64,000 nt of DNA from Mycobacteriales bacterium (GCA_040902655.1 JBBDWV010000005.1:1-64000), one strand, 5' to 3'. Counted from the stretch's first letter, positions 27,808 through 60,665 are shown. The notes: generated by a model from the letters alone, not told the origin. Made by a program: numbers and translations.

Positions 27808-27815
27808 GTGAGCTC

Positions 27816-39761: not shown

Positions 39762-39822
39762 GAACACTCCCCGCTGGTTCGGAGGTTGCATGCTGGCACG
39801 GGTTGACCGAGGATGACGCACG
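39762..39822. promoter_or_regulatory. Divergent meta-operon / iclR control region
   Basis: Only 61 bases separate the two starts, so operon and regulator promoters must overlap here or lie inside coding sequence. TGCATGC with flanking GGTTG...GGGTTG is the only visible symmetric or repeated element; no TTCCGC-type site is present. Confidence 0.4.
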
Positions 39823-40608: not shown

Positions 40609-40629
40609 GGCAGCAGGAACCGGCCGCAG

Positions 40630-41628: not shown

Positions 41629-41632
41629 CGCG

Positions 41633-42904: not shown

Positions 42905-42929
42905 GCCCGCGCCACCCGTCCAGCCCGCA

Positions 42930-43154
42930 CTAGTGGGCCGGCTCGTGCGTCGTCACGCGCTCGGTCGCCTCGATGTCGAAGACGTGCCCGCAGTCGTCGC
43001 ACCAGACGTGGAAGCGGCGCGCGTCTGCCGTCCAGTACTCCTGTACGAAGGCCTGCACGTCCAGCGGCGCACCGCAGTACGGGCAGAAGCGGACCGGCGA
43101 GGTGTCGGCCTCGTCGGCCGTCGACGCCCGGGCCGCGCCGGATCCATCAGTCAT
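42930..43154 (-). CDS. 74-residue zinc-ribbon protein of unknown function
   Basis: Small protein with two CxxC knuckles, C24/C27 (CPYC) and C52/C55 (CDDC), about 27 residues apart, followed by an acidic C-terminus; probably one structural zinc. ATG 43154 with AGAGGA upstream makes it a real gene. It sits between the Rieske oxygenase (26-base gap) and the dehydrogenase (25-base gap). It is not a Rieske ferredoxin (no His pair) and not a typical 2Fe-2S ferredoxin. It could be a small accessory or chaperone subunit. Confidence 0.7.
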   Translation of the reverse strand: MTDGSGAARASTADEADTSPVRFCPYCGAPLDVQAFVQEYWTADARRFHVWCDDCGHVFDIEATERVTTHEPAH

Positions 43155-43180
43155 GGCCTGTCCTCTGCCCGCGCTGCCGG

Positions 43181-44464
43181 TCAGACCGGTGCCGCATCCT
43201 GATCCGGGGCCGCCTCCGGCTGCTGGCTCTTCTCGGCCCGGTCGAACAGCGCGAAGACGTCCTCGATGATCGGGCTGTACCGGGCCTGACCCATCGTGAG
43301 GAACTCGTAACGGAAGCCCGCGCCGGTGCCGAACTTCTTCTTCTCCTGCGGCAGGGTGATGCAGACGTTCTCTGCCTCGTCCCGAACCGTGCCCAGCGGG
43401 TCCTGGCCCTCCTCGACCTTGTCCAGCTGCTCCTGGAACAGCCGGCGCAGCATGATGACACCGAGGTCGGAACGGCCCAGGTGTTCATTCGAGCGATCGG
43501 CGATGGAGCCCTGGCTGGCCCAGGCCATCACGTCCTGCCCGTCGACGAAGTCCACGAGGTGGTTGCCCTGTTCGTCGTACAGCGGCACCTCGAACAGCGG
43601 GATCGACTCCTGGGGCGACACGGTGTACTCGCCGTCCGGCTTGTAGACGTCGTACCAGAAGTGTGAGGTGGTGGTGTCGTCCACCGGGACACGGATCTGG
43701 AACTGGTAGTGCCCGCCGCCGCCGACACGCAGCGTCGCCGGGAAGACCAGCGGGTGGCCGATCTTCCAGTCGTCGTCCTCCTCGGTCATGCCCTCGAGGA
43801 CGCGGCGCTTGATGATGCCGTAGTCGAAGACGTCGAAGGCGATCTTCTCGTGCTTGCGGGCCAGCACCTCGGCCTTCGCCTCGCCGCTGATGCCCCGGAC
43901 GAAGTTCATGTAGTGACCGTGCAGCCACTCGACGTGGTGCGGGTCGACGGAGTTCTCCATGACCTGCAGCCAGTTCATCGGAAGCGTGGCGTGGCCGATG
44001 TCGCGCAGGCAGTTGTCCCAGACGAACAGGTCGAAGTGGGGCAGCAGCGGCGCCGGGTCGGGGCCCATGTAGATGAAGATGAGCCCGCCGAGCTCCTCCG
44101 CCCGGTAGGTGACGGCCTTGATGCGGTCCCTGAACGAGGTGTTGTCCGGCTCGGCCGGCTGCTCGAGGCACTGGCCGTCGGTTCCGTACAGCCAACCGTG
44201 GTAACCGCAGCGGATCCCGTCCGGCTCGACGATGGCGTAGCGCAGCGAGGCCCGGCGGTGCGGGCACTGCGCCTCGATGCAGGCCAGCTCACCGTTGCCG
44301 GTGCGGTAGATGACGATGTTCTCGCCCAGCAGTCGCCGCTGGATCGGCACCTGACCCAGCTCCGAACTCGCCGCGATGGGGTACCAGTACCGGCGCAGCA
44401 GCGTGCCCATCGGCGTACCGGGGCCGACTCGGGTGAGCCGCTCGTTCAACTCGCGTGTCAGCAT
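43181..44464 (-). CDS. Rieske non-haem iron oxygenase, alpha subunit (phthalate-dioxygenase type)
   Basis: 427-residue oxygenase component. Rieske cluster ligands C67, H69, C86 and H89 (CPHR and CGYHGW), then the mononuclear-iron region D174-x2-H177-x4-H182 in a DPHHVEWLH context. The start MLTRELNERL and the early PMGTLLRRYWYP block place it near phthalate 4,5-dioxygenase-like oxygenases, which have no beta subunit; none is found here. ATG 44464. With the one-component reductase two genes below it makes a two-component system. It could dihydroxylate a ring acid or demethylate an aryl ether. Confidence 0.85.
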   Translation of the reverse strand: MLTRELNERLTRVGPGTPMGTLLRRYWYPIAASSELGQVPIQRRLLGENIVIYRTGNGELACIEAQCPHRRASLRYAIVEPDGIRCGYHGWLYGTDGQCLEQPAEPDNTSFRDRIKAVTYRAEELGGLIFIYMGPDPAPLLPHFDLFVWDNCLRDIGHATLPMNWLQVMENSVDPHHVEWLHGHYMNFVRGISGEAKAEVLARKHEKIAFDVFDYGIIKRRVLEGMTEEDDDWKIGHPLVFPATLRVGGGGHYQFQIRVPVDDTTTSHFWYDVYKPDGEYTVSPQESIPLFEVPLYDEQGNHLVDFVDGQDVMAWASQGSIADRSNEHLGRSDLGVIMLRRLFQEQLDKVEEGQDPLGTVRDEAENVCITLPQEKKKFGTGAGFRYEFLTMGQARYSPIIEDVFALFDRAEKSQQPEAAPDQDAAPV

Positions 44465-44511
44465 CTGCTGGCCTCTTTTCTGTGAATTCCGGTGTTCCCC
44501 CACCGAGGGGA

Positions 44512-45363
44512 TCACGCTGCGAAGAAACCGTCTACCTGCCGCTGGAAGTCCTGTGCCCGCTCGATCTGCGTCCAGTGCCCGCATCCCGAGAAAATCACCA
44601 GATCTGCTGTCGGCAGGAGCTTCAGCAGCCGCAGGCTGGTCACCTCGAGCGGGATGATCTGGTCGTCCCGACCGTGCACGAGCAGCGTCGGCGCATGGAT
44701 CTGCGCCAGCTCGACCTCCGACAGCGCCATCGCGTCCAGGTGCCGCTGACGCGGAGCCGCGAACGCTTCCGCGTAGCGCTGCTGCACGTCGGGAACGGCA
44801 CTGGCTTCGTACCGCAGAGTGATGAGCTCCTCGGTGATCAGCCCCTGATCGTAGGCGAACAGGCGCATGATCTCGCGCATGTTGTCGGGCGAGGGTGTGT
44901 AGCCCCACACCCGGTCCAATCCCGGCGTGATGGGGAAGCCGATGCCGACGCTGCCCATGAGCACCATCCGACGGACCCGCTCGGGGTGCCGCGATGCCAG
45001 GGCGAGCGCCAACGCGCCGCCCATCGAGTTGCCGATGACGTCGACGGTGTCCAGACCGGCGGCGTCCAGGAACCCCAGCAGGTGGCGCACCCGGTTCTCG
45101 TGCGAGAGCGCTGTCCCGGCGACCGCACGCGTGTCGCCGAAACCCAGCACGTCCGGCGCGACGAGCCGGTTCCGGTCGCGTACCGGCGAGCGCATCAGCC
45201 CCTGCCAGTTTGCTCGACCGGAGACACCCGGTCCCGAGCCGTGGATCAGCAGGACCGGTCGACCCGTGCCGGATTCCAGGTAGTGGGTGTCGAACCCGTC
45301 GTGCGCGATCCGGCCGGACGCGAGGTCGTCCGGCACCGGCGCCACGGCGGTGCTCTGCGTCAC
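44512..45363 (-). CDS. Meta-cleavage-product hydrolase (alpha/beta-hydrolase)
   Basis: C-C bond hydrolase of 283 residues in the BphD/MhpC/DmpD group, releasing a carboxylic acid and 2-hydroxypenta-2,4-dienoate from a ring-cleavage product. HGSGPGVS oxyanion loop near 41-48, nucleophile S113 in GNSMGG, acid in HGRDDQ and base in GCGHWTQ. GTG 45363 overlaps the LigB-type dioxygenase stop by 4 bases (GTGA), pairing ring cleavage with hydrolysis. Its product enters the dmpE-G-F route encoded at 37-39.8 kb. Confidence 0.87.
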   Translation of the reverse strand: MTQSTAVAPVPDDLASGRIAHDGFDTHYLESGTGRPVLLIHGSGPGVSGRANWQGLMRSPVRDRNRLVAPDVLGFGDTRAVAGTALSHENRVRHLLGFLDAAGLDTVDVIGNSMGGALALALASRHPERVRRMVLMGSVGIGFPITPGLDRVWGYTPSPDNMREIMRLFAYDQGLITEELITLRYEASAVPDVQQRYAEAFAAPRQRHLDAMALSEVELAQIHAPTLLVHGRDDQIIPLEVTSLRLLKLLPTADLVIFSGCGHWTQIERAQDFQRQVDGFFAA

Positions 45364-46433
45364 GAGCCCGCCTGATAGGTGGCGAACACCTTGTTGGAGT
45401 TGAAGATGCCGGTCTCGATGAACTCCGTCCACGTCGGCACCGGCCGGCCGAGCGCCTCCATGGCGCCCAGCAGCGGGAACCAGTTCAGCAGCTCCTGCTG
45501 CCCGGCCGACTCGACCTCCTCGAGCGGGGTCCGGCGCCACTGGTCCACATCGCCGCACGCCATCGCGTCGTAGAGCCGGCGGTCGCTGGGGGTGTCCGGG
45601 CGCAGCCGCCAGGTCTTGTCGCAGATGAAGGCGTGCGACCAGCTGGACGAGGACACCAGCGCGACCCGCCAGGGCGAGGCGGCGAGCACCTCTGCGACGG
45701 CGGCACCGACGTCCATGAGCCGGGCGGGGGTGGGCGACGGCGGGTCGAGCTCGCGCACATCGTCGAAGGGCGCCATGAATCCTTGGTAACTGATGACCCT
45801 GCGGCCGTAGCAGTTGATCGGAAACGGCAGGACCGGGTAGGGGAAGCCGGTGCGGTGGTAGTCGAGGTACAGCACCGCGTTGAGGAATGCGTGCGGCAGG
45901 CTCGGGTGGTGCAGCCGCTCGTACGCGTAGGCCACGTCCACACCCCGCTCGAGCAGCCCGCTCACCAGATGCTTGCCGATGTCGCGACGACCACGGATGG
46001 TGAAGCTCGTCTCCGCCGTCTCACCCCACACGTTCGGGCGGCCCTTCATGTCCGAGGAGTCCGCGGCGTGGGCCCACGGGCGCACCTCGATGTCCTCGTA
46101 GGCCAGGACGGCGTACGGCGGGATGATGTCCTCGCGGAAGTTTTCGTACTGATCGTCGCCCCAGATGAGCACGACGTCCGGGGCGAAGGCGTCGATCTCC
46201 TCGCGCGCACGCTCGAAGCCCTTGATCAGCGCGGCCCGGTGGCCGGCCGCGGCGGCGACACCCTCGTCGTCGGCCCACTCCCGGCGCGCGATCTCCGGCC
46301 AGTTCACCGGGTCCTTCTCGGCGGCCGGGATGGCCGGGTCGGCGAGGATCCGACGCATGATCCCGGCCATGTCGGCGTCCAGCCCGCTGAACGGCGGGTA
46401 GTGGGACAGCCCTACCCCGAGCACCTCGGCCAT
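45360..46433 (-). CDS. Class III extradiol ring-cleavage dioxygenase (LigB family)
   Basis: 357-residue LigB-fold Fe(II) dioxygenase. H11 in GLSHYPP is the expected first iron ligand; a histidine-rich RLHHPSLPHAF block and WSHAF supply further candidates for the second iron histidine and the catalytic histidine. It is longer than 2,3-dihydroxyphenylpropionate dioxygenase (about 314). ATG 46433 has GGAGGAGG upstream. It is the first gene of the dioxygenase-hydrolase-Rieske-zinc ribbon-dehydrogenase-reductase operon and is divergent from a MarR gene. The catechol it cleaves is unknown. Confidence 0.85.
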   Translation of the reverse strand: MAEVLGVGLSHYPPFSGLDADMAGIMRRILADPAIPAAEKDPVNWPEIARREWADDEGVAAAAGHRAALIKGFERAREEIDAFAPDVVLIWGDDQYENFREDIIPPYAVLAYEDIEVRPWAHAADSSDMKGRPNVWGETAETSFTIRGRRDIGKHLVSGLLERGVDVAYAYERLHHPSLPHAFLNAVLYLDYHRTGFPYPVLPFPINCYGRRVISYQGFMAPFDDVRELDPPSPTPARLMDVGAAVAEVLAASPWRVALVSSSSWSHAFICDKTWRLRPDTPSDRRLYDAMACGDVDQWRRTPLEEVESAGQQELLNWFPLLGAMEALGRPVPTWTEFIETGIFNSNKVFATYQAGS

Positions 46434-48383: not shown

Positions 48384-49568
48384 ATGCCCGTCGACGCTGA
48401 CAGCACACCTGCGCGGGGCCCGCTCGCGGGCATCCGGGTCGTGGAGATCGCCAGCTTCATCGCCGGCCCCTATGCCGGGCAGCTGTTGGCCGATCTGGGC
48501 GCGGAGGTCGTCAAGGTGGAGTCCCCGTCGGGGGGTGACCCGTTCCGCAGCTTCGCCGGAGGCAGCTACGCGCCGCACTTCCTGGCCTACAACAGGAACA
48601 AGCGCAGCGTCGCGGTGGACCTGCGCAGCGAGCACGGCGCAGCGGTCGGCCGCGGGCTGGTGGAGCGGGCGGACGTCCTGCTGGAGAACTCCCGCCCCGG
48701 CGTCATGGACCGGCTCGGTCTGGGCTACGAGACGGTGCGCGGCTGGAATCCCCGCCTCGTCTACTGCTCGGTCTCCGGCTTCGGCCAGGAGGGCCCGGCG
48801 GCCGATCGGCCGGTCTACGACACCGTGGCGCAGGCTCTGGGCGGGATGCTCAGCCAGACGCTCGACCCGGACAAGCCGCGGATCACCGGCCCGGCGATGT
48901 CCGACGGCATCGCCGGACTCACCGCGGCCTACGCCGTTCTGGCCGCCCTCACGGCACGCGGCGCGGACGGGCCGGGGCAGCACGTCGACGTGTCGATGTT
49001 CGCCGCGACGGCGGCGTTCCTCACCTCGGAGGCGGCCATCTGGCACGCGACCGGCGACCGCGGGGGGCCGCACCGGCGGCCCAGCCTGAGCCAGTCGTAT
49101 GCCTTCACGTGCAGCGACGACCGGGTCATCACGGTGCATCTGTCGTCGCCGGCGAAGTTCTGGACCTCCTTCGTCGCGGCCGTCGAGCGCGCCGACCTGC
49201 TCACCGATCCCCGCTTCGCCACCCGCGAAGCCCGGGTGGAGCACTTCGAGGACCTGCATGTCGAGCTGGCTCCGGTCTTCCGCAGGCGGCCGGTCGAGGC
49301 GTGGCGGGAGGCCTTCCTGCACCACGACGTGCCGCACGCGCAGGTCAACTCGATCGAGGACGTCTTCGCCGAGCCGCAGGCGCAGCACTGGGGGCTCGAG
49401 CTCCGCCTGCAGCACCCCACGCAGGGGGAGGTGGTCGGCGTCGCCCCGCCGGTGCGCTTCTCGCAGACGCCGTGCCAGCAGCTGGCGGCGCCACCGACGC
49501 TCGGCCAGGACACCGCGGCGGTCCTCGCCGAGCTGGGGCTGCCGGCGGCTCCGCCAGAGCCGGCCTGA
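48384..49568 (+). CDS. Family III CoA-transferase (CaiB/BaiF)
   Basis: 394-residue CoA-transferase that moves CoA between carboxylates through an aspartyl intermediate; the catalytic aspartate is in the VYDTVAQALGGM block near residue 149. The N-terminal VVEIASFIAGPYA and LLADLGAEVVKVE segments are the family signature. It stands alone on the + strand, convergent with the second carboxylase operon, and could activate that operon's oxo-acid product (for example a 3-oxo acid) to its CoA ester. Substrate not predictable. The ribosome binding site at ATG 48384 is weak. Confidence 0.87.
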   Translation: MPVDADSTPARGPLAGIRVVEIASFIAGPYAGQLLADLGAEVVKVESPSGGDPFRSFAGGSYAPHFLAYNRNKRSVAVDLRSEHGAAVGRGLVERADVLLENSRPGVMDRLGLGYETVRGWNPRLVYCSVSGFGQEGPAADRPVYDTVAQALGGMLSQTLDPDKPRITGPAMSDGIAGLTAAYAVLAALTARGADGPGQHVDVSMFAATAAFLTSEAAIWHATGDRGGPHRRPSLSQSYAFTCSDDRVITVHLSSPAKFWTSFVAAVERADLLTDPRFATREARVEHFEDLHVELAPVFRRRPVEAWREAFLHHDVPHAQVNSIEDVFAEPQAQHWGLELRLQHPTQGEVVGVAPPVRFSQTPCQQLAAPPTLGQDTAAVLAELGLPAAPPEPA

Positions 49569-49608: not shown

Positions 49609-50463
49609 TCAGATGCCGAACAGCCGGCGCGCGTTCTCGAGCAGCACCTTCGGCCGCACCTCGTCCTTGATCGGGAGCTCGGCGAACTCCGCCAGCCAGC
49701 GCTCCGGGGTGATGACCGGCCAGTCGGAGCCGAAGAGCACCCGGTCCTGCAGCATCGTGTTGACGTGCTGCACCAGCTGCGGCGGGAAGTACTTCGGAGC
49801 CCAGCCGGACAGGTCGAGGTAGACGTTGCCCTTGTGCCGGGCCATTGCCAGCTGCTCGTCCTGCCACGGCCATCCCGGGTGCGCCGAGATGATCGTGAGT
49901 CCCGGGTGGTCGGCGGCGATGTCGTCGAGGTAGGGAATGGGGGCGGTGTACTTCAGCTTGAAGCCCAGGCCGCCCCGCTGCCCCGCCCCGTTCCCCATCA
50001 TGCCGGTGTGGAACAGGCAGATCAGGCCCAACTCGGCTGCCAGCTCCCACAGCGGCGCGAACCGCGGCGCGTTGGCCTCGAAATGCTGGCGACCCGGGTT
50101 GAACTTCAGGCCCCGCAGGCCGAGACCCTTGATCCGCCGGACTTCCTCGAGCGCCAGCCTGCCCATCCAGGGATCGACACCACCGAAGCCCAGGAACACG
50201 TCCGGGTGGTCACGGACCGCCCGTGCGACGTGGTCGTTCGGGACCGGCGGCAGGCCCGAGCTGGTGGAGTCGTCAGAGGCCAGCAGCACGCACATCATCC
50301 GCCGGCGCCGGTAATCCTCGGCAAGCGTGTCCAACGACACGGGGTCCATCTGCTTGCCGAAGTACGTCGACATGGCCTCGCGACGGCCGCCGCCCATCGA
50401 GGCGAGCGAGACGTCGTCCCACGGGTGGACGTGGCAGTCGATCGCGGTCAGGTCAGCCAGCAT
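49609..50463 (-). CDS. Amidohydrolase-2 family metal-dependent hydrolase/decarboxylase
   Basis: 284-residue TIM-barrel protein with DCHVHPW (HxH) near residues 9-15, FHTG near 150, SAHPGW near 192 and GSDWP near 246, a full amidohydrolase-2 metal set. Homologues include hydrolases of lactones and aromatic acid decarboxylases. ATG 50463 lies 11 bases inside the end of the second HyuA gene, so it is part of the same transcript, and it is the last gene of the TRAP-carboxylase operon. It may process the product of the carboxylase. Confidence 0.8.
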   Translation of the reverse strand: MLADLTAIDCHVHPWDDVSLASMGGGRREAMSTYFGKQMDPVSLDTLAEDYRRRRMMCVLLASDDSTSSGLPPVPNDHVARAVRDHPDVFLGFGGVDPWMGRLALEEVRRIKGLGLRGLKFNPGRQHFEANAPRFAPLWELAAELGLICLFHTGMMGNGAGQRGGLGFKLKYTAPIPYLDDIAADHPGLTIISAHPGWPWQDEQLAMARHKGNVYLDLSGWAPKYFPPQLVQHVNTMLQDRVLFGSDWPVITPERWLAEFAELPIKDEVRPKVLLENARRLFGI

Positions 50464-52252
50464 CCGGCAGCGTCCTCTCCATGACGATGTTGCCCCACTC
50501 GTCGATCCGTGCGCCCCAGCCGTCGTTCACGGCATAGGAGCTGTCTGCCGCCTCGATGATGGCCGGCCCGTCGAGCTCCGCCCCGCGCGCGAGTTCGGCC
50601 AGCTGGAACACCGGTGTCGGGACCGCCTCGACCGAGTCCTCCCAACGCACCGCACGCCGTTCCTTCGGCTCCGGCCGGGACGGCTCGACGGACGCGGCGA
50701 CCGGCAGCCAGTGCGGGGTGGGCGCCCAGGCGCTCAGCGTGGCCCGCCCGTCGCGGGTGCCCGCCTCATAGCGGATGTCCGAGGCGGGAAAGCCCTCACC
50801 GCGCATGTCGACCTCGGCCTGGCGGCGGAGCGCGCCCGGGTCCTTGCCGGCGTACTCGTGCCGGACGTCTGCGGTGGACGACCCGAAGGCGCTGAACACC
50901 GAACCGAAGGGGAAGCCGACCACGCGCCGGATCCCGATCAGATCGGCCAGGCCACAGCCGTGCAAGGGGCCGCCGCCCCCGAAGGCGAACAGGGTGAAGC
51001 TGCCGGGGTCGTCCAGCCGGCTGCCGATCAGCCCGGCCATGCCCTCGTTCACCCGACTCCTGATGGCCATCGCGAGATCCTCGGTGGAGCCTTCCAGCTG
51101 CCGCCCGACGCGTCGGGCGATCGCCTGCTCGGCGCGGTCTCGGTTGAGCGCCATCCGCCCGCCGAGGAACCTGTCGGGGTCGATCAGGCCCAGGACGAGG
51201 TTCGCGTCGGTCACCGTCGGCTCGACACCGCCCTTGTCGTAGCAGGCGGGACCAGGTGCCGAGCCGGCGCTCTGCGGCCCGACCTGCAGCTGCCCGTCGA
51301 CGACCTTGGCGATGCTGCCGCCCCCGGCACCCAGCGACTCGGTCTCGATCATGGGCACCGACAGGTGCAGGCCGGCCATCCACGGGTCGTCCACCACCGC
51401 AGGGCGGGCGCCCTGCAGGACGGCGACGTCGAGGCTGGTGCCCCCCATGTCGGCGGTGACGACGTTCTGCTCGCCGAGGAGCTCGGCCAGGGCCGCGACG
51501 CCGTTCACGGCCACGGCCGGCCCGCTGCTCAACGTCTGTACCGCGACCGTCTTGGCCACCCGCGCGCAGCCGCCGCTGGCGTGCACGACGAGCAGCGGCC
51601 GGGTCAGACCGTTGTCGCGGACGAGGTCGTCGGCCCGGAACAGCCCCCGCGCGAGCTCGCCGTGCAGGTAGGCGTTCAGCGCCACGGTGTTGGTCCGGGT
51701 GTGGGCATCGCTCGAGTAGCTGACCTCGTGGCTGAGCTGGAGGGGGATCGAGCGCAGGTAGTGGACCGGATAGCGCTCGAGCACGACCGCCCGCAGCGCC
51801 TGTTCGGCCTGGGCATCCCGCAGGCTGACCGCGATCATCCGGGCACCGAGGTTGACCAGTGTCCTGGCGGCCAGCAGCACCTCCTCGTCCTCGGGTGCCG
51901 AGCTGATGCCCACGACCATTCCGGGACGCAGGAAAAGGTCGCCGGCGGGAGCGGGTCCGTCCCCGTACAGGTCCTGCTCGTGGCCCCTCTCCACGATGAG
52001 GCCGAGGGTCGGGCCGCGGCGCTGGAGCAGCGTGTTGGTGCCGAGTGTCGTCGACAGACGTACGACGAGGCAGTCGCGCAGGAAGTCGCGCAAGGGCACG
52101 CCGAAGCGGGACGCGCCTTCGGACAGGCAGTTCAGGAAGCACTCGGTGAGGTCGTGCGGGGTGGTGAGCACCTTCCCTGTCCGGCTCTCGGCCCCGTCGG
52201 TGAAGAAGCCGTCCGTGAAGGTCCCGCCCACGTCCAGGTCCGCGGTGTACAT
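50453..52252 (-). CDS. Second HyuA-like ATPase subunit, short form (module 2)
   Basis: 599-residue hydantoinase-A family protein, about 100-130 residues shorter than the other HyuA proteins here, the loss being mainly in the middle and C-terminus. Both phosphate loops are present: DVGGTFTDGF near 7-16 and ADMGGTSLD near 269-277, with GAGGGSIAK and FGGGGPLHG blocks after them. ATG 52252 shares one base with the stop of the URO-D-like gene (TGATG). In acetophenone carboxylase two different HyuA-type chains occur in one complex; this could be the second such chain. Confidence 0.82.
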   Translation of the reverse strand: MYTADLDVGGTFTDGFFTDGAESRTGKVLTTPHDLTECFLNCLSEGASRFGVPLRDFLRDCLVVRLSTTLGTNTLLQRRGPTLGLIVERGHEQDLYGDGPAPAGDLFLRPGMVVGISSAPEDEEVLLAARTLVNLGARMIAVSLRDAQAEQALRAVVLERYPVHYLRSIPLQLSHEVSYSSDAHTRTNTVALNAYLHGELARGLFRADDLVRDNGLTRPLLVVHASGGCARVAKTVAVQTLSSGPAVAVNGVAALAELLGEQNVVTADMGGTSLDVAVLQGARPAVVDDPWMAGLHLSVPMIETESLGAGGGSIAKVVDGQLQVGPQSAGSAPGPACYDKGGVEPTVTDANLVLGLIDPDRFLGGRMALNRDRAEQAIARRVGRQLEGSTEDLAMAIRSRVNEGMAGLIGSRLDDPGSFTLFAFGGGGPLHGCGLADLIGIRRVVGFPFGSVFSAFGSSTADVRHEYAGKDPGALRRQAEVDMRGEGFPASDIRYEAGTRDGRATLSAWAPTPHWLPVAASVEPSRPEPKERRAVRWEDSVEAVPTPVFQLAELARGAELDGPAIIEAADSSYAVNDGWGARIDEWGNIVMERTLPDAG

Positions 52253-52986
52253 CAGCTCAACTCCTTCAGCCACGCAGAGAGGTGCTCGGCCGGCAGGTCC
52301 TGCGGCACCTCTCCGTCGGTCACGACAGGCCTTCCACGCCAGCTGCGGTTCGGCTCCCGAGCCAGCTCGTCCAGGGGCAGCACCTGATCGCGGGGCAGCT
52401 CGTCCAGCACGATGACCTGTGCCCCGAAGTAGCCGGCCACGTTGAGCAGCGGGTTCAGGGAGACGTCCTGCTGCGATCCCACCCCCAGCACCGGGTCCTC
52501 CGCGACGATGAGCAGCCGGGCCCCGCGCTCGAGATAGGCCCGGGCGAGCACCGCGTACAGCTGGGTCAGCTCGGCGGCGTCCACCGGCAGCACGGACTGC
52601 AGGCTGCGAGGTCCCGACAGCACCCCGGCGACGGCCACGTCGTCCCGGAACTCGGTGCTCAGTCGCGCCGTCACCTCGAGTACCTGGGCCAGCGGCGTCG
52701 CGTCCAGCAGGTCCTGTCCGGCCGGGAGGGGAGCGGTCGCGGTCCCGCTCCCGGTGATGCTGCCCGTGGAGTCCCGCTCGACCCGCGCCCCGCACGCCTC
52801 ACCCTCCACGCCGAGGCGGAAGTGCGAGACGACGACCGGCAGGCCGAACAGCTGCTGGGCGCTGCGCAGTGCGAAGGTCGACGAGGTCACGTCGTCGCTG
52901 AGCTCCTCCCAGGTGAGCTGCTCCAGCCGTCCCGCGAGGCGGTAGACGATGGGCAGGAAGCCGATGTCGTGAGGAGGCGCCGTCAT
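52252..52986 (-). CDS. Short URO-D/methyltransferase-like protein in the carboxylase operon
   Basis: 244-residue protein resembling the URO-D superfamily (uroporphyrinogen decarboxylase, MtaA-type methyltransferases) in pattern. Visible are an N-terminal FLPIVYRLAGRLEQL segment, an AQQLFGLPVVVSHFRLGVEGEACG stretch in place of the usual elfG...D..veaeAlG, VAGVLSGPRSL where the family has a GP(F/L)T strand, and YLERGARLLIVAED. It is about 100 residues shorter than true URO-D and lacks the N-terminal arginine motif of haem synthesis. ATG 52986 overlaps the HyuB stop by 4 bases. Its tight insertion between HyuB and HyuA genes suggests a subunit or helper of that enzyme. Confidence 0.65.
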   Translation of the reverse strand: MTAPPHDIGFLPIVYRLAGRLEQLTWEELSDDVTSSTFALRSAQQLFGLPVVVSHFRLGVEGEACGARVERDSTGSITGSGTATAPLPAGQDLLDATPLAQVLEVTARLSTEFRDDVAVAGVLSGPRSLQSVLPVDAAELTQLYAVLARAYLERGARLLIVAEDPVLGVGSQQDVSLNPLLNVAGYFGAQVIVLDELPRDQVLPLDELAREPNRSWRGRPVVTDGEVPQDLPAEHLSAWLKELS

Positions 52987-55115
52987 TCGTACTGGCCCCA
53001 GTACGGCTTGTCGTAGCTCTCCAACCTCGGTTCGGGCCAGTTGCCGTAGTAGGTCAGCATGTCCTCGCGCGGACGCTGGGACAGCCACCCCTGGATGAAC
53101 TCCCCGAACGGCTTGCCCCGCTCCCGGCGCTCGTCGCGCTCGGCGGCACGGGCTGCGGTGGTCGCCTGCTGATCCACCTGATCGGTGTGCGGGTCGACGA
53201 CGACGTGGTAGACGTCCCGCGCGGTCTCGGCGGACAGCACCTCGGCCCGGACGTCCTCCAGTACGGCCTCCGGCTCGCGCTCGAGCACATCGCCGTAGCC
53301 CCCACCGGCACTGATGCTGTAGACGAAGATGTCACCGGCCTGGAAGTCCTCGGTCGCCGCCGAGGACGTCGCGAAGATGTACTCGCCCTCGATGGCCTGC
53401 TCCTTGGCCAGTGCGTACTGGCTGAACTTCAGGCGTGGGTCGCTGTCGGCCAACATCTCGAGCGCGTTGGTCCCGCGGATGACGAAGCGTGGGTTCGGCG
53501 GCCCGGCGTAGCCGCCGAACAGACCCGAGTTGTGACTGACCCGATCCGACCCGCCGCGGGAGGTCATCTGGCAGCCCCCCTGCGGCGCCATCGACACCTC
53601 CATCAGTGGCGTGCCACCACGGAACTTCCCGAAGCCGTGGAAGTCCTTGTCGATCATCCTGGCCAGCGTCACCGTCGGCAGTCGCATGTCCGACTCCTCG
53701 ACCTCACCCGCGTCGGTGAAGGACGCCCAGTAGAAGCCGGCGGCGTGCTCGCCATCCAGGTCGAAGCGGGCCCCCTGGCCGGCCGCGTTCGCCGCGCCGG
53801 AGAAGTTGGCGGTGCGGTAGCCGTAGCTGTTCGTGCCCGCCTGGATGTAGAGGGTGACGTTGCGGGCGAAGGGCGCCGATACGCCGAGCCGATGCTCGCT
53901 GCCGAAGAGCATCTTCGAGCCCATGACATGGACGTTCTGCACCAGCATCGCCGAGATGGTGGTGCCTTCCCCGTGCGCGACATCGGCCGAGCAGTTCGCG
54001 ATCGAGGGACCTTCCACGAGCACCTCGATGGGATCGAACAGACCCATGTTGGCCGGCAGTCCCCGGAAGAAGTAGGTGAACAGGTAGACCCCCATCGAGG
54101 CCTTCATCAGGTGCCAGGTCGAGTGCTGCGGACCCCTGTTGTTCTCCGGTGAGACGCCCTGGACGAGCACGGTGAGGGAGTCACCCTCCTTGATGACCGT
54201 GGTCGGCACGCGGACCAGCCCGGAGTCGTTGCCGACCCCGTCGTTGAACATCACGTTGCGGTAGATGCCGTCGTTCAGCTGCAGCAGGCGCTGGCGGGCC
54301 AGGTCCGCTGTCACCGACAGGATCTTGCGCAGCCCACCCGCCACCTGCTCCTTGCCACGCCGCTCGGCCTCCCGTATCACGCGGTCGCGGATGCGCTGGA
54401 CGGTCGCCACCCGCGCCTTGAGGTCGGAGGCGAAGACGAAAGGGTTGCGCACGGAGTTGAGGAAGAAGTCCAGGATGTCACGGCGGAGCTCCCAGTTGTC
54501 CGCGATCCGCAGCGCGTGGACGTGCAGGCCCTCCTCCCAGCGGGTCGTGGCGGTCGGGCTGAACCCGCCCGGCGAGATCGAGCCGCACTCACCCTGGTGG
54601 CCGCCGACTTCGGCCCAGCCGATCAGTTCGCCCTCGAAGAAGATGGGCGCGAAGACAAACATGTCGAAGGTGTGGACGCCACCGCAGGTGGGGTCGTTGA
54701 AGAAGTAGACGTCGCCGTCCCGCAGGCCGACGGTCGGGTCGTCGCGGTAGTACTCCAGGACGTACTTGATCGGCCCGTAGTTGAGCAGGCTGTGGAAGAA
54801 GATGCCGGTGGCCACCACCGCGGGGTCGCCCTCGGGCGTGAAGACCGTGGCGTTCATGTCACCGGTGATGATCCCCTCGGAGATCGACAACGACATGTAG
54901 ACGTCCCGGGCCTCCTCGACGATGGAGTTCATCTTGTGGCGGAAGACCTCCAGGTCGACCATCGAGATCGACTCCATCCCCGCGAGCTCGAGCGGCGACG
55001 GGGGCTCCGTCGACCGGATCAGCAACTCCGGGTCCCGCCCGGGCGCCTTGCCGTAGGCGTGCCGGTCGTAGATCAGGCCGTCGTGCAGTCGGATGCTGTC
55101 GCGCAGGCGTCCCAT
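52983..55115 (-). CDS. HyuB / carboxylase alpha-like subunit (module 2)
   Basis: 710-residue hydantoinase-B family protein with a candidate metal site H148, D151 and H173 (GGVHTFD and GGHQGE), equivalent to the site in module 1 and in acetone carboxylase. Compared with module 1 it has extra residues at the N-terminus and a long C-terminal extension ending in aromatic residues. Start ATG 55115, 8 bases after the HyuA stop. Predicted to carry the carboxylating centre of an ATP-dependent enzyme with the adjacent subunits. Confidence 0.82.
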   Translation of the reverse strand: MGRLRDSIRLHDGLIYDRHAYGKAPGRDPELLIRSTEPPSPLELAGMESISMVDLEVFRHKMNSIVEEARDVYMSLSISEGIITGDMNATVFTPEGDPAVVATGIFFHSLLNYGPIKYVLEYYRDDPTVGLRDGDVYFFNDPTCGGVHTFDMFVFAPIFFEGELIGWAEVGGHQGECGSISPGGFSPTATTRWEEGLHVHALRIADNWELRRDILDFFLNSVRNPFVFASDLKARVATVQRIRDRVIREAERRGKEQVAGGLRKILSVTADLARQRLLQLNDGIYRNVMFNDGVGNDSGLVRVPTTVIKEGDSLTVLVQGVSPENNRGPQHSTWHLMKASMGVYLFTYFFRGLPANMGLFDPIEVLVEGPSIANCSADVAHGEGTTISAMLVQNVHVMGSKMLFGSEHRLGVSAPFARNVTLYIQAGTNSYGYRTANFSGAANAAGQGARFDLDGEHAAGFYWASFTDAGEVEESDMRLPTVTLARMIDKDFHGFGKFRGGTPLMEVSMAPQGGCQMTSRGGSDRVSHNSGLFGGYAGPPNPRFVIRGTNALEMLADSDPRLKFSQYALAKEQAIEGEYIFATSSAATEDFQAGDIFVYSISAGGGYGDVLEREPEAVLEDVRAEVLSAETARDVYHVVVDPHTDQVDQQATTAARAAERDERRERGKPFGEFIQGWLSQRPREDMLTYYGNWPEPRLESYDKPYWGQYE

Positions 55116-55123
55116 GAGAATCC

Positions 55124-57325
55124 CTAGCCTCGAGAGGAGATGGTGCGAGCGTTGGTGTCGGCGTCGCTGCTCTGCGACACGGCGTGCAGGGCGGCGCCGG
55201 CCGGCTGTCGGTGCATCCAGCCGGTGCGGTTCTCGTCCAGCCGGAAGGTCCAGTCAGGGGGGACGACGCCCACCGAGTCGTCCGAGTCGATGAGCGCGGG
55301 ACCGGCAAACGCCGTGCCGGGGGCGAGGCTCTCCCACAGGTAGACGGGGGTCTGCAACGGGCCGTGTTCCGGCCCCCAGAAGGCGAGTCTCTCCCCGCGT
55401 TGCTCCGTCTGCGTCACGCTGCCACGATTGGCCGACAGGGGTGGGCTGGGTAGCGGTGCGCTGGCGTTCAGTCGCAGGCCGAGAATCTCGACACCGGCCT
55501 CGATGTAGACCGACCCTGGACCGTAGGCCTCCGCGTAGGCGGTGGCGAACTGCGAGACCAGCCGCTCCACGTCGCTGACGTCCTCCAGCTGGAGCTTGTC
55601 GGCATCCACGGGCAGGCTGTGGCGCTGCTGGCCGAAACGCAGAAGCACCTCGAGCGAGTAGCTGATCCCCTCCGCTTGGAAGCCCTCCTCGTCGATGTCC
55701 CGGTGCGCTTCCGCGAGCAACTCCTGGACCGCAGTGTTGAACGGGCCGATGACGTCCTCGGCGTAGCGCTGGGTCGTCGAGGAGTAGAGGATCGCCGAAT
55801 GCGTCCGCTCGTAGGACTGCAGGACATCCAGGTGCAGCGTGCCGAACGCTCCCGCAACGCTGCCGAAGGCGAACATCGCTACGGTCGACACGTCGGCTGC
55901 GGCGGCGTAACCGGAGGCGTGCACCGGCCCGGCGCCGCCGAAGGCGAAGACGGTGAAGTCCCGGGGGTCGAGGCCGGAGGTGAGGGCCGCGATCCGGTAG
56001 ATCTCCTGGCCCATCATGCCGTCGACCATCTGCTTGATGCTCCAGGCGGCGGTGTGTAGATCCATCCCCAGCGGCTCGGCGACGTGTTCGCGAACCGCAG
56101 CCCGCGCGCGCTCCGCGTCCAGCCTTATGCGCCCGCCGAGGAAGTAGTCGGGATCGATGTAGCCGAGGACGACGTCGGCGTCGGTGACGGTGGGGCGATC
56201 GCCGCCGCGGCCGTAGCAGGCGGGGCCGGGCAGCGCCTTGGCGCTCTGCGGGCCGACCCGGAGGATGCCCTCCTCCACTCGGGCGAGGCTGCCGCCCCCG
56301 GCGCCGATGGACCAGTGCGCGACCAGGGGCACCTGCACCCGCCACCGGTCGATGACCGGGTCGAAGTCGTGGATCCGCTCCCGGCCCTCGACGATGAGCC
56401 CGAGGTCGAAGCTCGTGCCGCCCATGTCGGTCATCAGGACGTTCTTCACCCCGTAGCTGCGGCCCACCTCGGCTGCGCCGACGATGCCGGCCACCGGGCC
56501 GCTGCCGAACATGTGGATGGGGCGGGTGCGGGACAGGGACGACGCACCGCCGGTGCACTTGGCGATGAGGAAGGGCTGCTCGTAACCCTTGTCGCGGCAA
56601 TCGTCGGTGAGGCCGAGCAGGTGACTCTCCGCCTCGATCCGCAGGAACGCGTCGAGGACGCACGTCGTGGTCCGCCGGTACTCCCCCATCTGGGGGGACA
56701 CGTCGCTGGACAGGAAGACCGGCATGTGACCGAGGTAGGACTCCGGGTACTGCTGCCGGATGAGTTCACGCACCCGCTGCTCGTGCTCTGGGTTGACGTA
56801 GGAGTAGAGAAAGACCACCACGAAGCCACGAACGCCCTGGTCGACCAGGTGCTGCACCTGCGCCAGGACGTCCTCGTCCTGGATCGGCATGAGCACATTG
56901 CCCTGGTTGTCCATGCGCTGCCGCACGCCACGGATGAGGTGCGGCGGGATGAGCGGCTCCGGTCGCTGCGCCCGCGCGCGGTCGTAGCGGGACTCGATCG
57001 GCAGCCCGTCCGCCCAGCTGCGGCCCCGGCCGATGAGCATCGTGTCCTCGTAACCCATCGTCGTGATGAGACCGAGCTTGGGCCCGCGGTGTTCGATGAG
57101 TGCATTCGTGCCGACCGTCGTGGAGTAGACGATTGATTCCGTCTCCGCAAGCAGCTCGTCGAGGGTCAACCCGAACTGCTCGCCGGCTGTCCTTACCGAG
57201 TTGAAGAATCCGACCCGCAGGTCGTACGCCGTCGAATCCGCCTTGGCTCGCGCTGCCTCACCGTCGCGCACCACGTACACGTCGGTGAAGGTCCCGCCGA
57301 CGTCCACCCCGATGCGGGCCGTCAC
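55124..57325 (-). CDS. HyuA / carboxylase beta-like ATPase subunit, long form (module 2)
   Basis: 733-residue hydantoinase-A family ATPase. Phosphate loops GVDVGGTFTDVY near 6-17 and TDMGGTSFDLG near 302-312, then GAGGGSLAR and FGGAGPVHA. GTG 57325 overlaps the gamma stop by 4 bases (GTGA). The frame is open about 120 codons further upstream, but that part lies in the gamma gene. It probably phosphorylates the enol(ate) substrate or bicarbonate for the HyuB chain. Confidence 0.83.
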   Translation of the reverse strand: MTARIGVDVGGTFTDVYVVRDGEAARAKADSTAYDLRVGFFNSVRTAGEQFGLTLDELLAETESIVYSTTVGTNALIEHRGPKLGLITTMGYEDTMLIGRGRSWADGLPIESRYDRARAQRPEPLIPPHLIRGVRQRMDNQGNVLMPIQDEDVLAQVQHLVDQGVRGFVVVFLYSYVNPEHEQRVRELIRQQYPESYLGHMPVFLSSDVSPQMGEYRRTTTCVLDAFLRIEAESHLLGLTDDCRDKGYEQPFLIAKCTGGASSLSRTRPIHMFGSGPVAGIVGAAEVGRSYGVKNVLMTDMGGTSFDLGLIVEGRERIHDFDPVIDRWRVQVPLVAHWSIGAGGGSLARVEEGILRVGPQSAKALPGPACYGRGGDRPTVTDADVVLGYIDPDYFLGGRIRLDAERARAAVREHVAEPLGMDLHTAAWSIKQMVDGMMGQEIYRIAALTSGLDPRDFTVFAFGGAGPVHASGYAAAADVSTVAMFAFGSVAGAFGTLHLDVLQSYERTHSAILYSSTTQRYAEDVIGPFNTAVQELLAEAHRDIDEEGFQAEGISYSLEVLLRFGQQRHSLPVDADKLQLEDVSDVERLVSQFATAYAEAYGPGSVYIEAGVEILGLRLNASAPLPSPPLSANRGSVTQTEQRGERLAFWGPEHGPLQTPVYLWESLAPGTAFAGPALIDSDDSVGVVPPDWTFRLDENRTGWMHRQPAGAALHAVSQSSDADTNARTISSRG

Positions 57326-57684
57326 GCCGAGCCGCCCGTCTCGGCGACGGCGCCCGCCGCGTACCGGCGCGCGAGGTCGTCGAGATCCAGCTCGATGTCC
57401 CAGGTCAAGGGGTGGCCCGGCGGCAGGTACTCGTTCTCGATCAGAGTCGAGCAGCCCGGACAGTAGAACTCGATCAGGCGGACCCACGCCGGGTCGAACG
57501 AGAAGTTGTACTCCTTGTGCGGCGCCAGCACCGGGTGGACGTCCTGGGGGTTGCGGTCGGCGACCAGGCATCCCTCCTTGTAGGGCCGGTCGGCCGGGCC
57601 GATGTCGTGACCGCACCGGTTGCAGTACCAGTGGCGGTCGTCGAGCTCGATGTCCAGGTACTCGGTGATGCGGATCCGTGGCAT
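57322..57684 (-). CDS. Acetone/acetophenone-carboxylase-gamma-like zinc subunit (module 2)
   Basis: 120-residue small subunit with cysteines in CNRC near 21-24, a further C39 and CPGC near 74-77, a likely zinc site. Length is close to the 15-kDa class subunit of acetophenone carboxylase and longer than the module 1 gamma. ATG 57684; ribosome binding site weak. First enzyme gene after the TRAP transporter, 79 bases below its last gene; a 12-base palindrome CAGCCAAGGCTG at 57734-57745 lies in that gap. Confidence 0.75.
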   Translation of the reverse strand: MPRIRITEYLDIELDDRHWYCNRCGHDIGPADRPYKEGCLVADRNPQDVHPVLAPHKEYNFSFDPAWVRLIEFYCPGCSTLIENEYLPPGHPLTWDIELDLDDLARRYAAGAVAETGGSA

Positions 57685-57763: not shown

Positions 57764-59086
57764 TCATGTGGCGCCCAGGAGGAGGTCCGGCAGGACCAGG
57801 ACGATCGCGGGGAAGGCCATCATCAGCGCGATGGCCGCGAGGTCGACGCCGATGAACGGGACGGCTGCCCGGCACACGTCGGCGAAGCTGAAGGACTCCG
57901 GGGCAGCGCCTTTCACCGCGAACAACCCCAGGCCGAGTGGTGGCGTCAGGTTCGCCATGTCCATCGTGATGAGCATGAGAATCCCGAACCAGACCGGGTC
58001 GTAGCCCAGCGCGACGACGACCGGCACGAACACCGGCAGGGTGATGAGCAGGATTGAAACCTGCTCCATGGGCGAGCCCATCAAAACCACGATCAGCACC
58101 ATCGCGGCGATCACGACCAGCGGGTGCACCGGGAGATCCGTCACCAGCGCCAGCAGGTCCCGGGTGGCTCCGGAGAAGGCCAGCAGCTGACTGTAGGCGG
58201 CGGCCCCGCCCATGATCAGCAAAATCATCCCACTGAGCCGGACAGTCCCGAGAAGCGAGCGGACCACAGCATCCCGGCTGGCGGTCCCGTAACCGACCAT
58301 GAGGATGGCGGCAGCGAGCACGCCGAAGGCCGCCGCCTCGGTCGGTGTCGCAATGCCCCGCACGATGAGGCCGAGGATCACCAGCACGACCAGCCCCAAC
58401 GGGAGGATGTCGCGCACGACGATGACCAGGCGCTCACGGGTGCTGATCCGCGGCGACTCGTAGTTCGGCGCCTGGCTGGGGTCGCGCCAGCACCGCACGA
58501 CGATGTAGGTGACCGACAACGTGGCGAGCAGCAGGCCGGGCAGGATGCCCGCGACGAGCAGCCGGCCGATGGAGATGTTCCCGATCGTCCCGACCAGGAC
58601 TGCCATGGCGCTGGGCGGAACGATCATGGCGAGGCCGCCGGCAGCCAGAATGGGCCCGGCGGACATGCTCTTGCTGTAACCGCGGTCGAGCATCTCGGGG
58701 ATCAGCGTCCGGCTGAGCATGGAGGTGGTGGCCACGGCCGAGCCGCTCAGGGTGCCGAGGGCGGTGCCGCCGGCCATCGTGATCACGCCGAGCCGTCCGG
58801 GAACACGTCCCACGATCTTGGCCACGGCGTCCAGCGTCCGGGTCGCCACCTGCGCCTGGAAGAGAAGCTCGCCCATGAGCACGAACATCGGGATCGGGAG
58901 CAGCGCGTAGTTGCCGATGAAGCTCGGGATGCTGGTGACCATCCGGTCGACGCCGGTCTCGAAGCCGAACAGCAGGGTGCTGGCCAGGATGCTGGTCGTC
59001 AGGAAGGCGAAGGCCACCGGAATGCCCGTGAACATCAGGACCAGCAGACAGCTGAGAAAGGCCAGCAGCACGATCTCCCAGCTCAC
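57764..59086 (-). CDS. dctM: TRAP transporter large permease
   Basis: 440-residue membrane protein with 12 or so hydrophobic helices and the DctM/GntP-like blocks (IPMFVLMGELLF, GTLSGSAVATTSML, PTEAAAFGV). Couples solute import to the sodium gradient together with DctP and DctQ. GTG 59086 overlaps the dctQ stop by 4 bases. Placed directly upstream of the module 2 genes, so it probably imports the substrate of that enzyme, expected to be a carboxylate or other anion. Confidence 0.9.
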   Translation of the reverse strand: MSWEIVLLAFLSCLLVLMFTGIPVAFAFLTTSILASTLLFGFETGVDRMVTSIPSFIGNYALLPIPMFVLMGELLFQAQVATRTLDAVAKIVGRVPGRLGVITMAGGTALGTLSGSAVATTSMLSRTLIPEMLDRGYSKSMSAGPILAAGGLAMIVPPSAMAVLVGTIGNISIGRLLVAGILPGLLLATLSVTYIVVRCWRDPSQAPNYESPRISTRERLVIVVRDILPLGLVVLVILGLIVRGIATPTEAAAFGVLAAAILMVGYGTASRDAVVRSLLGTVRLSGMILLIMGGAAAYSQLLAFSGATRDLLALVTDLPVHPLVVIAAMVLIVVLMGSPMEQVSILLITLPVFVPVVVALGYDPVWFGILMLITMDMANLTPPLGLGLFAVKGAAPESFSFADVCRAAVPFIGVDLAAIALMMAFPAIVLVLPDLLLGAT

Positions 59087-59625
59087 GGGACGCCTTTCCT
59101 CGGCATCGCCCGCAGCAGGCCCCGCACGAGTTCGGCGGAGAGCAGGAAGAACCCGATCGGAATGGCGGCCCGGGTGAGCCAGCGCGGGACGGACAGCCCT
59201 CCGCTGGTCAGCACCACCGCCCGCTGGTAGTCGTCGAGCACCAGGCTCAGGGAGTACCAGCCGGCGATGCCACAGGCAGCGAGGGCCACCCCGGCCGTGG
59301 CCAGAGCGAGCAGGCGGGCCCGGTGCGGACCGATTCTGCTGCCCAGGAAGTCGACCGCGACGTGCCCGTTCTGCCGCAGGATCCAGGCGGCCGGCAGGAA
59401 CGTCAGGCAGATGACGTAGTACTCCGCGAGCGGCACCGTCCAGGGCGCCGAGTCGATCCCGATCTGCCGCGCCAACACGTCGTAGACGATGACGAGGATC
59501 AGGGCGAGCAGCATGGCCCCGACCAGGGCGGCCAGCCCGTCCTCGACCCGGTCCAGGCCCCGCGACAGCAGCCCCGACGCCGAACGCGGCCTGCGGTCCG
59601 CGCCGGGTTCGGCCGCCGGGCTCAC
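59083..59625 (-). CDS. dctQ: TRAP transporter small permease
   Basis: 180-residue protein with four hydrophobic helices (about 33-52, 68-85, 107-130, 148-168) and the NGHVAVDF block typical of DctQ. Overlaps dctP by 4 bases and dctM by 4 bases. Needed with DctM for transport. Confidence 0.88.
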   Translation of the reverse strand: MSPAAEPGADRRPRSASGLLSRGLDRVEDGLAALVGAMLLALILVIVYDVLARQIGIDSAPWTVPLAEYYVICLTFLPAAWILRQNGHVAVDFLGSRIGPHRARLLALATAGVALAACGIAGWYSLSLVLDDYQRAVVLTSGGLSVPRWLTRAAIPIGFFLLSAELVRGLLRAMPRKGVP

Positions 59626-60665
59626 GTGAAGAACTTGTCAATCAGGGTGTCGGCGTCGGTGCGGACGTTCTTCTGGACCCAGCTCTTCGCGGAGTCCCTG
59701 GACAGCTCCAGGTATTTCTCTGCCTCGCCGCCCTCGAACTCCACCTGCTTCACCCCGGCAGCCTCGAGCGTCTTCAGCTCCTCTGCCCGGAGCTGCTCGT
59801 AGGCCTCGCCGGTCCTGCCCTCGACATTGATGGCCGCCTGGGTGAGCACCTCCTGCTGCGCCTCGGACAGCCCCTCCCAGATGTCGAGGTTGACCAGCTC
59901 GACGATGTCGGTCTGCCAGTACGTCGGCAGCACCTGGTAGCGGGCGACCTCGTGGAGCTGGATGGCCGAGATGCCGACGAAGGGCCAGGTGAACCCGTTG
60001 ATGACGCCCCGCTCGAGGGACGTGAAGATCTCGCCCGGCGGCAGGGTCACCGCCTCGGCGCCCAGGGCCTCCACGAACGGCACATACACCGGGGAGACCC
60101 GCAGCCGCATGCCGGCCAGGTCAGCGACGGCCGCCACAGGCTTGGTCGTGTACATGCTGTACGTCGACCCGACCGAGCCGCGGCCGAGCAGGTGGGCGTT
60201 CATCCGTTCGTGGTGGATGTCGCTCAGATACTCGAAGGCACCGGATTCCCGCTCCTCCTCCGCCGTCAGCTGCGAGTAGTCCAGCACGGAGGCTTCGGGC
60301 AGCGCGGGGAGGTAGTAGGCGGCGGAGAGCCAGGCCATGTCGATCGCGCCGGACCGCACCGCGTCGGCGAGGTCGAAGGGGGCGATGGACTCCGGCCCGC
60401 CGACCACCTCGATCGACATCTTGCCGTCGCTGAGCTTGTCGACCTCCTCCTGGAGCATGCCGAGGCCGACGTTCTGGTAGGGGTCGTTCTCCGGCCAGGC
60501 CGCGACCAGCCGCAAGGTGGCCGACCCGACGGAGCCGTCGCCGCCCGAGGATGTATCGGTGTCGGCTGCGCCGCCACCGCAGGCGGCCAGCGCGACGGCG
60601 CCGGCCAGGACCAGGCCTAGCCGACGGAAGATCTTTCGGGTGTGGGGAGATCCGGACCTGATCAA
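59622..60665 (-). CDS. dctP: TRAP transporter substrate-binding lipoprotein
   Basis: 347-residue extracytoplasmic binding protein with a lipoprotein signal: arginine/lysine-containing N-terminus, hydrophobic stretch and LAAC lipobox with the lipidated cysteine near residue 29, then a Ser/Gly/Thr linker. The DctP fold is recognisable; the ligand-carboxylate arginine is probably in the MRLRVSP segment near 186-192. ATG or GTG start at 60665. First gene of an operon of about 11 kb reaching 49609. Confidence 0.88.
   Translation of the reverse strand: MIRSGSPHTRKIFRRLGLVLAGAVALAACGGGAADTDTSSGGDGSVGSATLRLVAAWPENDPYQNVGLGMLQEEVDKLSDGKMSIEVVGGPESIAPFDLADAVRSGAIDMAWLSAAYYLPALPEASVLDYSQLTAEEERESGAFEYLSDIHHERMNAHLLGRGSVGSTYSMYTTKPVAAVADLAGMRLRVSPVYVPFVEALGAEAVTLPPGEIFTSLERGVINGFTWPFVGISAIQLHEVARYQVLPTYWQTDIVELVNLDIWEGLSEAQQEVLTQAAINVEGRTGEAYEQLRAEELKTLEAAGVKQVEFEGGEAEKYLELSRDSAKSWVQKNVRTDADTLIDKFFT

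Follow-up and report, generated by a model that had tools for sequence, protein, structure and literature searches.

A probable ketone carboxylase operon of the acetophenone carboxylase type, with a shortened URO-D-related epsilon subunit, in a Mycobacteriales bacterium

The operon described here lies in a 64,000-nt stretch of DNA from a Mycobacteriales bacterium (GCA_040902655.1, JBBDWV010000005.1:1-64000; hereafter the window), whose genome has a guanine-plus-cytosine (GC) content of 71%. On the minus strand, six genes form a tight run and encode, in this order, proteins resembling the gamma, alpha, beta, epsilon and alpha' subunits of acetophenone carboxylase (Apc), followed by an amidohydrolase (Table 1). 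The gamma and alpha (HyuA1) genes overlap by 4 bases and 8 bases separate alpha from beta (HyuB), while beta overlaps epsilon by 4 bases, epsilon overlaps alpha' (HyuA2) by 1 and alpha' overlaps the amidohydrolase gene by 11. Third-position GC is 0.90-0.94 in all six open reading frames, which confirms the annotated frames as coding. All six had been called in the original prediction, which was made from the sequence, and all were recovered on the minus strand at unchanged coordinates, with overlaps or gaps of no more than 11 bases. Pfam families were matched by gamma (PF08882, E=5e-29), by the two HyuA chains (PF01968, E=3e-71 and 3e-68) and by HyuB (PF02538, E=7e-77).

To identify the single chains, each was searched against all PDB chains, the Apc core being represented by 5l9w. 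Specifically, gamma matched the Apc small subunit (5l9w_C) with E=2.7e-41 and the gamma chain of acetone carboxylase (Acx) with E=8e-4; its four cysteines align with Cys22, Cys25, Cys75 and Cys78 of Apc gamma and, at 120 aa and without the Acx N-terminal extension, it is of the Apc type. The best match of alpha was Apc alpha (5l9w_B, E=2.4e-163, 549 bits), followed by Acx (342 bits), N-methylhydantoinase (329) and caprolactamase (314), and beta matched Apc beta (5l9w_A, E=4.2e-109, 369 bits) ahead of Acx (145) and caprolactamase beta (116). For alpha', the best match was Apc alpha' (5l9w_b, E=2.7e-99, 337 bits), with Apc alpha near at 319 bits; as these scores are close, the identity of HyuA2 was settled by the tree described below. 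The AlphaFold model of alpha', built from six sequences and of moderate confidence (predicted local distance difference test, pLDDT, 77), also had 5l9w_b as its top Foldseek match. In an NCBIfam scan, all five chains, with epsilon among them, had the acetophenone carboxylase model of their own subunit as first match. The comparison of each chain with Apc and Acx, which had been proposed as a check, thus returned for every chain its own Apc subunit.

In a HyuA tree of 71 rows, Apc alpha, Apc alpha' and Acx each fell on one side of a branch, with support values of 75, 100 and 100, respectively. The two HyuA chains of the window are split, one falling in the Apc-alpha and the other in the Apc-alpha' group, and both the acetone carboxylases and the other HyuA genes of the genome lie outside these two clades. 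The beta tree agrees, as it places the window beta with Apc and apart from Acx and the hydantoinases. A grouping with ATP-dependent hydantoinases or 5-oxoprolinases, named beforehand as the outcome that would speak against an Apc-type system, was observed for neither HyuA nor HyuB, with three uncharacterised gene pairs from the sampled genomes serving as the hydantoinase outgroup. The acetone carboxylase AcxABC shares with the window operon homologous alpha, beta and gamma chains and the zinc ribbon of gamma, but it has neither alpha' nor epsilon, its gene order is alpha-beta-gamma and it forms the separate clade supported at 100.

The motifs expected in the catalytic chains are retained. The three ASKHA ATP motifs of alpha are intact, as are those of alpha' (DVGGTFTD, DMGGTSLD and GSAPGP), so that, taking motifs and separate clades together, the operon has two distinct ASKHA kinase chains, as Apc does. 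In beta, H148, D151 and H173 are kept, with a spacing equal to that of the manganese ligands His150, Asp153 and His175 of acetone carboxylase (PMC5543143); across the loci, this motif was read by eye in the segments concerned.

These data also bear on the nature of the reaction, which had been left open between a carboxylase and a hydrolase. An ATP-dependent cyclic-amide hydrolase of the hydantoinase, 5-oxoprolinase or lactamase type, with extra subunits and with the amidohydrolase continuing the hydrolysis, would account for the final gene of the run and for the alpha and beta superfamily shared with HyuAB and CapAB (7hk5, 6yra). However, those enzymes have two subunits only and hydrolyse rather than carboxylate, gamma, alpha' and epsilon being absent from hydantoinases (PMC5214803), while the scores of alpha and beta against Apc exceed those against hydantoinase or caprolactamase chains by 200-250 bits. 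In addition, the operons of the relatives are accompanied by CoA-transferase, thiolase and ChsH2-like genes, and the amidohydrolase gene is not conserved beside the closest of them. We consider such a hydrolase very unlikely; of the two options, the evidence leans clearly to the carboxylase.

The fourth chain was the point at which the inventory had been thought to depart from Apc, since the extra protein looked like uroporphyrinogen decarboxylase (URO-D). Taken alone, the window epsilon had no Pfam match and its best PDB sequence matches were at chance level; a single-sequence scan of genome contigs found nothing, and a search in 100 related genomes returned only the window itself. It was matched by the NCBIfam ApcE model NF042977 (E=4.5e-8) and by MtaA (E=0.001). 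As single-sequence searches found no relatives, profile methods were needed. A search of Actinomycetota with NF042977 recovered epsilon genes inside whole Apc-like operons; a profile of six members matched the solved Apc epsilon, 9fou, with E=2.8e-25 and MtaA with 5e-15, and a 50-member profile matched 9fou_A with E=3.6e-61, MtaA with 1.7e-17 and uroporphyrinogen decarboxylase with 1.6e-3. Pfam URO-D was matched by 23 of the 50 members. The window epsilon was modelled by AlphaFold at pLDDT 91.8 and, among 350,542 PDB chains, Foldseek ranked 9fou chains first to third (query TM-score 0.72-0.75), with MtaA and URO-D next. The link between the window epsilon and 9fou is therefore drawn through the family profile and the fold, rather than through the window sequence by itself.

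From the profiles, the Pfam matches and the fold, we conclude that the Apc epsilon and the URO-D-like protein of the window belong to a single family inside the URO-D superfamily. A URO-D-like protein foreign to Apc was rejected on the strength of the 50-member profile and of the top Foldseek rank. The supposed exception was mistaken, as 9fou belongs to the identical URO-D-related family; since the Apc epsilon is itself URO-D-related, the inventory matches Apc completely. Although epsilon shares its fold with the methylcobamide:CoM methyltransferase MtaA and with uroporphyrinogen decarboxylase, it lacks the His-x-Cys motif and the later second Cys found in genuine MtaA/URO-D-type proteins from these loci. 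These residues bind zinc in MtaA-type enzymes; with the motifs lost, methyl-transfer chemistry would not be expected and epsilon is probably not a methyltransferase. Our literature search found no paper stating the URO-D link of the Apc epsilon; the release date of 9fou is 2025-12-24, and the fold was presumably known to those who deposited it.

To assess how widespread this arrangement is, 84,980 species genomes were scanned on the basis of gamma; of the 308 relatives obtained, 80 were kept. With the window and the operons from the Actinomycetota search included, and known duplicates left out, 71 loci hold the full alpha-alpha'-beta-gamma core. By iterated profile search, in which adjacency was used to accept members, epsilon is present in 61 of them, in Bacteria and haloarchaea; the six-member starting profile alone gave 51 epsilon matches, 48 of which were adjacent. 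Close epsilon orthologues had been described in only two other gene clusters (PMC5214803), and the range of the subunit is thereby widened and tied to the URO-D superfamily. Some single loci in this sample deserve mention. The haloarchaea Halopenitus and Halobellus (L073, L097) have all five genes in one Apc-like operon, in which alpha' and epsilon precede the other subunits. Two contigs of metagenome-assembled genomes (MAGs) named Klebsiella pneumoniae (L050, L055) bear Apc-like operons resembling those of gammaproteobacterial MAGs, and the label is probably wrong. Finally, two loci labelled Nitrospina (L054) and Desulfobacteraceae (L057) have identical gene coordinates and scores and are seemingly one sequence under two names.

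With A to E standing for alpha', gamma, alpha, beta and epsilon, the order A-B-C-D-E was the most common (about 40 loci). The order B-C-D-E-A was found in the window, in a Blastococcus MAG (L024), in an actinomycete MAG (L026), in Rubrobacter marinus (L027) and in ten Acidimicrobiia loci; further orders were A-B-E-C-D, A-E-B-C-D (haloarchaea) and E-A-B-C-D, and SAR202/Chloroflexi showed B-C-D-A without epsilon. The window thus departs from the apcABCD(E) arrangement, but as the order varies among full five-gene clusters, it is typical of Apc rather than defining. In the beta tree, every B-C-D-(E)-A locus falls into one clade (Shimodaira-Hasegawa-like approximate likelihood ratio test, SH-aLRT, 100), within which the pair lacking epsilon is nested (99), and the alpha tree agrees. 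Gene order is therefore a trait of this clade and, most simply, epsilon was lost within it. No epsilon match was found anywhere in the two SAR202 draft genomes or in those of L064, L093 and L102, several of which are incomplete MAGs. Within the clade, epsilon measures about 310 aa in Rubrobacter marinus and 244 aa in the window, and it is absent from SAR202.

The cluster of the window holds alpha, alpha', beta, gamma and epsilon together, which is how Apc clusters are recognised, epsilon being usual (PMC5214803); a further mark given there is carboxylation coupled to the conversion of two ATP to two ADP and dependent on epsilon. Compared with Apc of Aromatoleum aromaticum EbN1 (core 5l9w, epsilon 9fou), all five subunits are present, each being the best match of its counterpart, and the two ASKHA kinases with intact motifs, the zinc-binding gamma, the H-D-H site of beta and the URO-D-related epsilon are in common. 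On the other hand, the gene order is B-C-D-E-A instead of A-B-C-D-E, the pocket residues differ, alpha' and epsilon are shortened, beta counts 710 aa, a CaiB-type CoA-transferase lies beside the operon where that of EbN1 contains a benzoylacetate-CoA ligase, and a tripartite ATP-independent periplasmic (TRAP) transporter is found upstream. Judging from these comparisons, we hold it to be likely, with good confidence, that the operon encodes an Apc-type, biotin-independent and ATP-dependent ketone carboxylase made of alpha, alpha', beta, gamma and epsilon, acting probably not on acetophenone.

A number of observations weigh against this assignment. Seven residues of the ketone pocket have been named for Apc alpha (PMC5214803), and in the window alpha three are kept (F281, P285, I333) and four are changed (L81T, N282G, Q344A, T345H), the positions being mapped by pairwise and multiple alignment rather than on a structure of the window enzyme. 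The fingerprint R/KERiDsxG of Apc alpha (PMC5214803) is partly kept, reading VRQRMDNQG in the window and VRERMDSKG in its nearest relative. All cut-offs of the NCBIfam equivalogs for acetophenone carboxylase in the strict sense (NF042960, NF042974-NF042977) were missed by far: alpha reached 585 of 1500 bits, beta 393 of 1500, gamma 147 of 250 (NF042974, E=3e-43), alpha' 396 of 1250 and epsilon 33 of 450. About 55-60 residues of the alpha+beta domain are missing from alpha', and epsilon, although complete at both ends, lacks about 60 residues before its conserved C-terminal motif; with both chains shortened, one or both could be impaired. Furthermore, no thiolase is adjacent to the operon in the window, and the best match in a search of the genome lies on another contig with 43% identity.

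By the NCBIfam yardstick, the predicted enzyme shares its family with acetophenone carboxylase but is not identical to it. All ten clade members examined have Gly282 and Ala344, whereas the other alpha chains have Asn282 in 18 of 21 cases and His in 3, and vary at position 344, which is mostly polar. These two positions and the missed cut-offs argue against a true acetophenone carboxylase acting on acetophenone or on a simple ring-substituted acetophenone, despite the full subunit match and the wealth of aromatic degradation genes in the window (protocatechuate 3,4-dioxygenase-like, meta-cleavage aldolase, aldehyde dehydrogenase, LigB-like, Rieske oxygenase). Moreover, a neutral, diffusible ketone would not need a TRAP transporter, and hydroxylated acetophenones are known to use the biotin-dependent Hpe/Xcc enzymes (PMC9618137). 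All in all, we find this alternative unlikely; a different ketone is the probable substrate, and an annotation of the operon as acetophenone carboxylase in the strict sense should be avoided.

The shortened chains can also be read as signs of a decaying operon with a partly or wholly inactive complex. Alpha' and epsilon are indeed shorter than the counterparts of the nearest relatives, and in Rubrobacter marinus the frame of alpha' is broken. In addition, the operon was not found in related genomes (100 searched for epsilon, 60 for gamma), except for a different, ABCDE-type operon in one of them (G009). Yet the frames are open, codon composition is normal, the coupled junctions are kept and the ATP motifs are intact; the shortened epsilon is predicted to fold with pLDDT 91.8, and the SAR202 relatives keep an intact core without epsilon. 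Decay therefore appears highly improbable, slightly more so than a hydrolase.

The broken alpha' frame of Rubrobacter marinus (L017, 6327-8326, the same locus as L027) lies inside DMGGTS and reflects either a sequencing error or a decayed gene. The operon of G009, a genome of the same family as that of the window, spans L153 5744-13833, is ordered A-B-C-D-E and belongs to another subfamily; as a relative within the family holds an operon of different order and subfamily, separate horizontal gains are suggested.

The genes surrounding the operon are listed in Table 1.

Table 1. Genes of the operon and its immediate neighbours, with positions in the window
Feature	Position	Strand	Remarks
CaiB-type (class III) CoA-transferase	48384-49568	+	convergent neighbour; PF02515, 1e-112
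Amidohydrolase, Amidohydro_2 family	49609-50463	-	284 aa; final gene of the run; PF04909, E=3e-51
Alpha' subunit (ApcA-like HyuA, HyuA2), predicted bicarbonate kinase	50453-52252	-	599 aa; shortened
Epsilon subunit (ApcE-like, URO-D fold)	52252-52986	-	244 aa; shortened
Beta subunit (ApcD-like HyuB)	52983-55115	-	710 aa; H148-D151-H173 metal-site motif
Alpha subunit (ApcC-like HyuA, HyuA1), predicted ketone kinase	55124-57325	-	733 aa; GTG start
Gamma subunit (ApcB-like)	57322-57684	-	120 aa; CxxC...CxxC zinc ribbon
TRAP transporter DctM	57764 to about 59086	-	PF06808/PF04290/PF03480 matches across DctM, DctQ and DctP
TRAP transporter DctQ	59083-59625	-	Pfam TRAP-family match
TRAP transporter DctP	59622-60665	-	Pfam TRAP-family match

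The complete TRAP transporter is encoded upstream on the strand of the operon, with 79 bases between DctM and gamma, and no terminator-like hairpin was found in this gap. In L024, L026, L027, L032 and L037, the gene that comes immediately after alpha' is a CaiB; the window CaiB scores 373-620 bits against these five, versus 192-250 bits against the CaiB found in the vicinity of other Apc loci. The operons of L027, L032 and L037 and of all ten Acidimicrobiia loci are flanked by a thiolase and a ChsH2-like partner. In the acetophenone pathway, carboxylation to a beta-keto acid is followed by thioester formation by a CoA ligase and by thiolytic cleavage (PMC5214803); by analogy, the neighbours of the relatives would fit a route of carboxylation, CoA transfer and thiolysis.

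On this basis, a working scheme can be proposed by analogy with Apc, in which the five chains would assemble into one complex. Alpha would phosphorylate the enol form of the ketone to give an enol phosphate, and alpha' would phosphorylate bicarbonate to carboxyphosphate; both activated intermediates would then come together at the metal site of beta or close to it, where the C-C bond would be formed, or its formation assisted, to yield a beta-keto acid. Gamma may wrap around beta as a zinc-containing structural chain, and epsilon may be a loosely bound assembly, bridging or gating subunit with a URO-D fold devoid of the methyltransferase zinc ligands. The CaiB-type transferase would probably turn the beta-keto acid into its CoA thioester, which a thiolase encoded elsewhere would then split. 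More speculatively, the substrate perhaps carries an acid group and is imported by the TRAP transporter.

In conclusion, the Apc-type assignment holds, and on firmer ground than originally supposed. Of the suggestion of a new carboxylase of this class, what stands is a new, well-supported branch, not a new kind of system; the rearranged gene order, the shortened epsilon and alpha', the different predicted pocket and the CoA-transferase/thiolase context had not been foreseen. We see an even chance that the clade with the order gamma-alpha-beta-(epsilon)-alpha' forms a functionally distinct subfamily of ketone carboxylases whose substrate is another ketone, possibly a carboxylated one, and in which epsilon is being worn down, so that a four-subunit enzyme suffices for the whole reaction; if so, the function of epsilon can be read from this clade. 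A single Apc enzyme had been biochemically characterised as of 2017 (PMC5214803), and this clade suggests an enzyme that forms C-C bonds without biotin and probably acts on a new ketone substrate. As one well-supported clade holds long, short and no epsilon, it offers natural material on which the role of this subunit can be tested.

The rest of the window is an aromatic-catabolism region. At 22266-24920 and 37010-46433, it encodes a protocatechuate 3,4-dioxygenase-like pair, a CMLE-type lyase, a DmpG-type aldolase, an acylating aldehyde dehydrogenase, a FAH-type hydratase, a LigXa-like Rieske oxygenase with a reductase, and a LigB-like protein. A second HyuA/HyuB pair (25822-29915, minus strand, 699 and 717 aa) groups with neither Apc nor Acx; it is preceded by alcohol and aldehyde dehydrogenase genes and followed by a 101-aa open reading frame without Pfam match (region 25520-29915). 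An acetone carboxylase was rejected for this pair, as no gamma match was found beside it.

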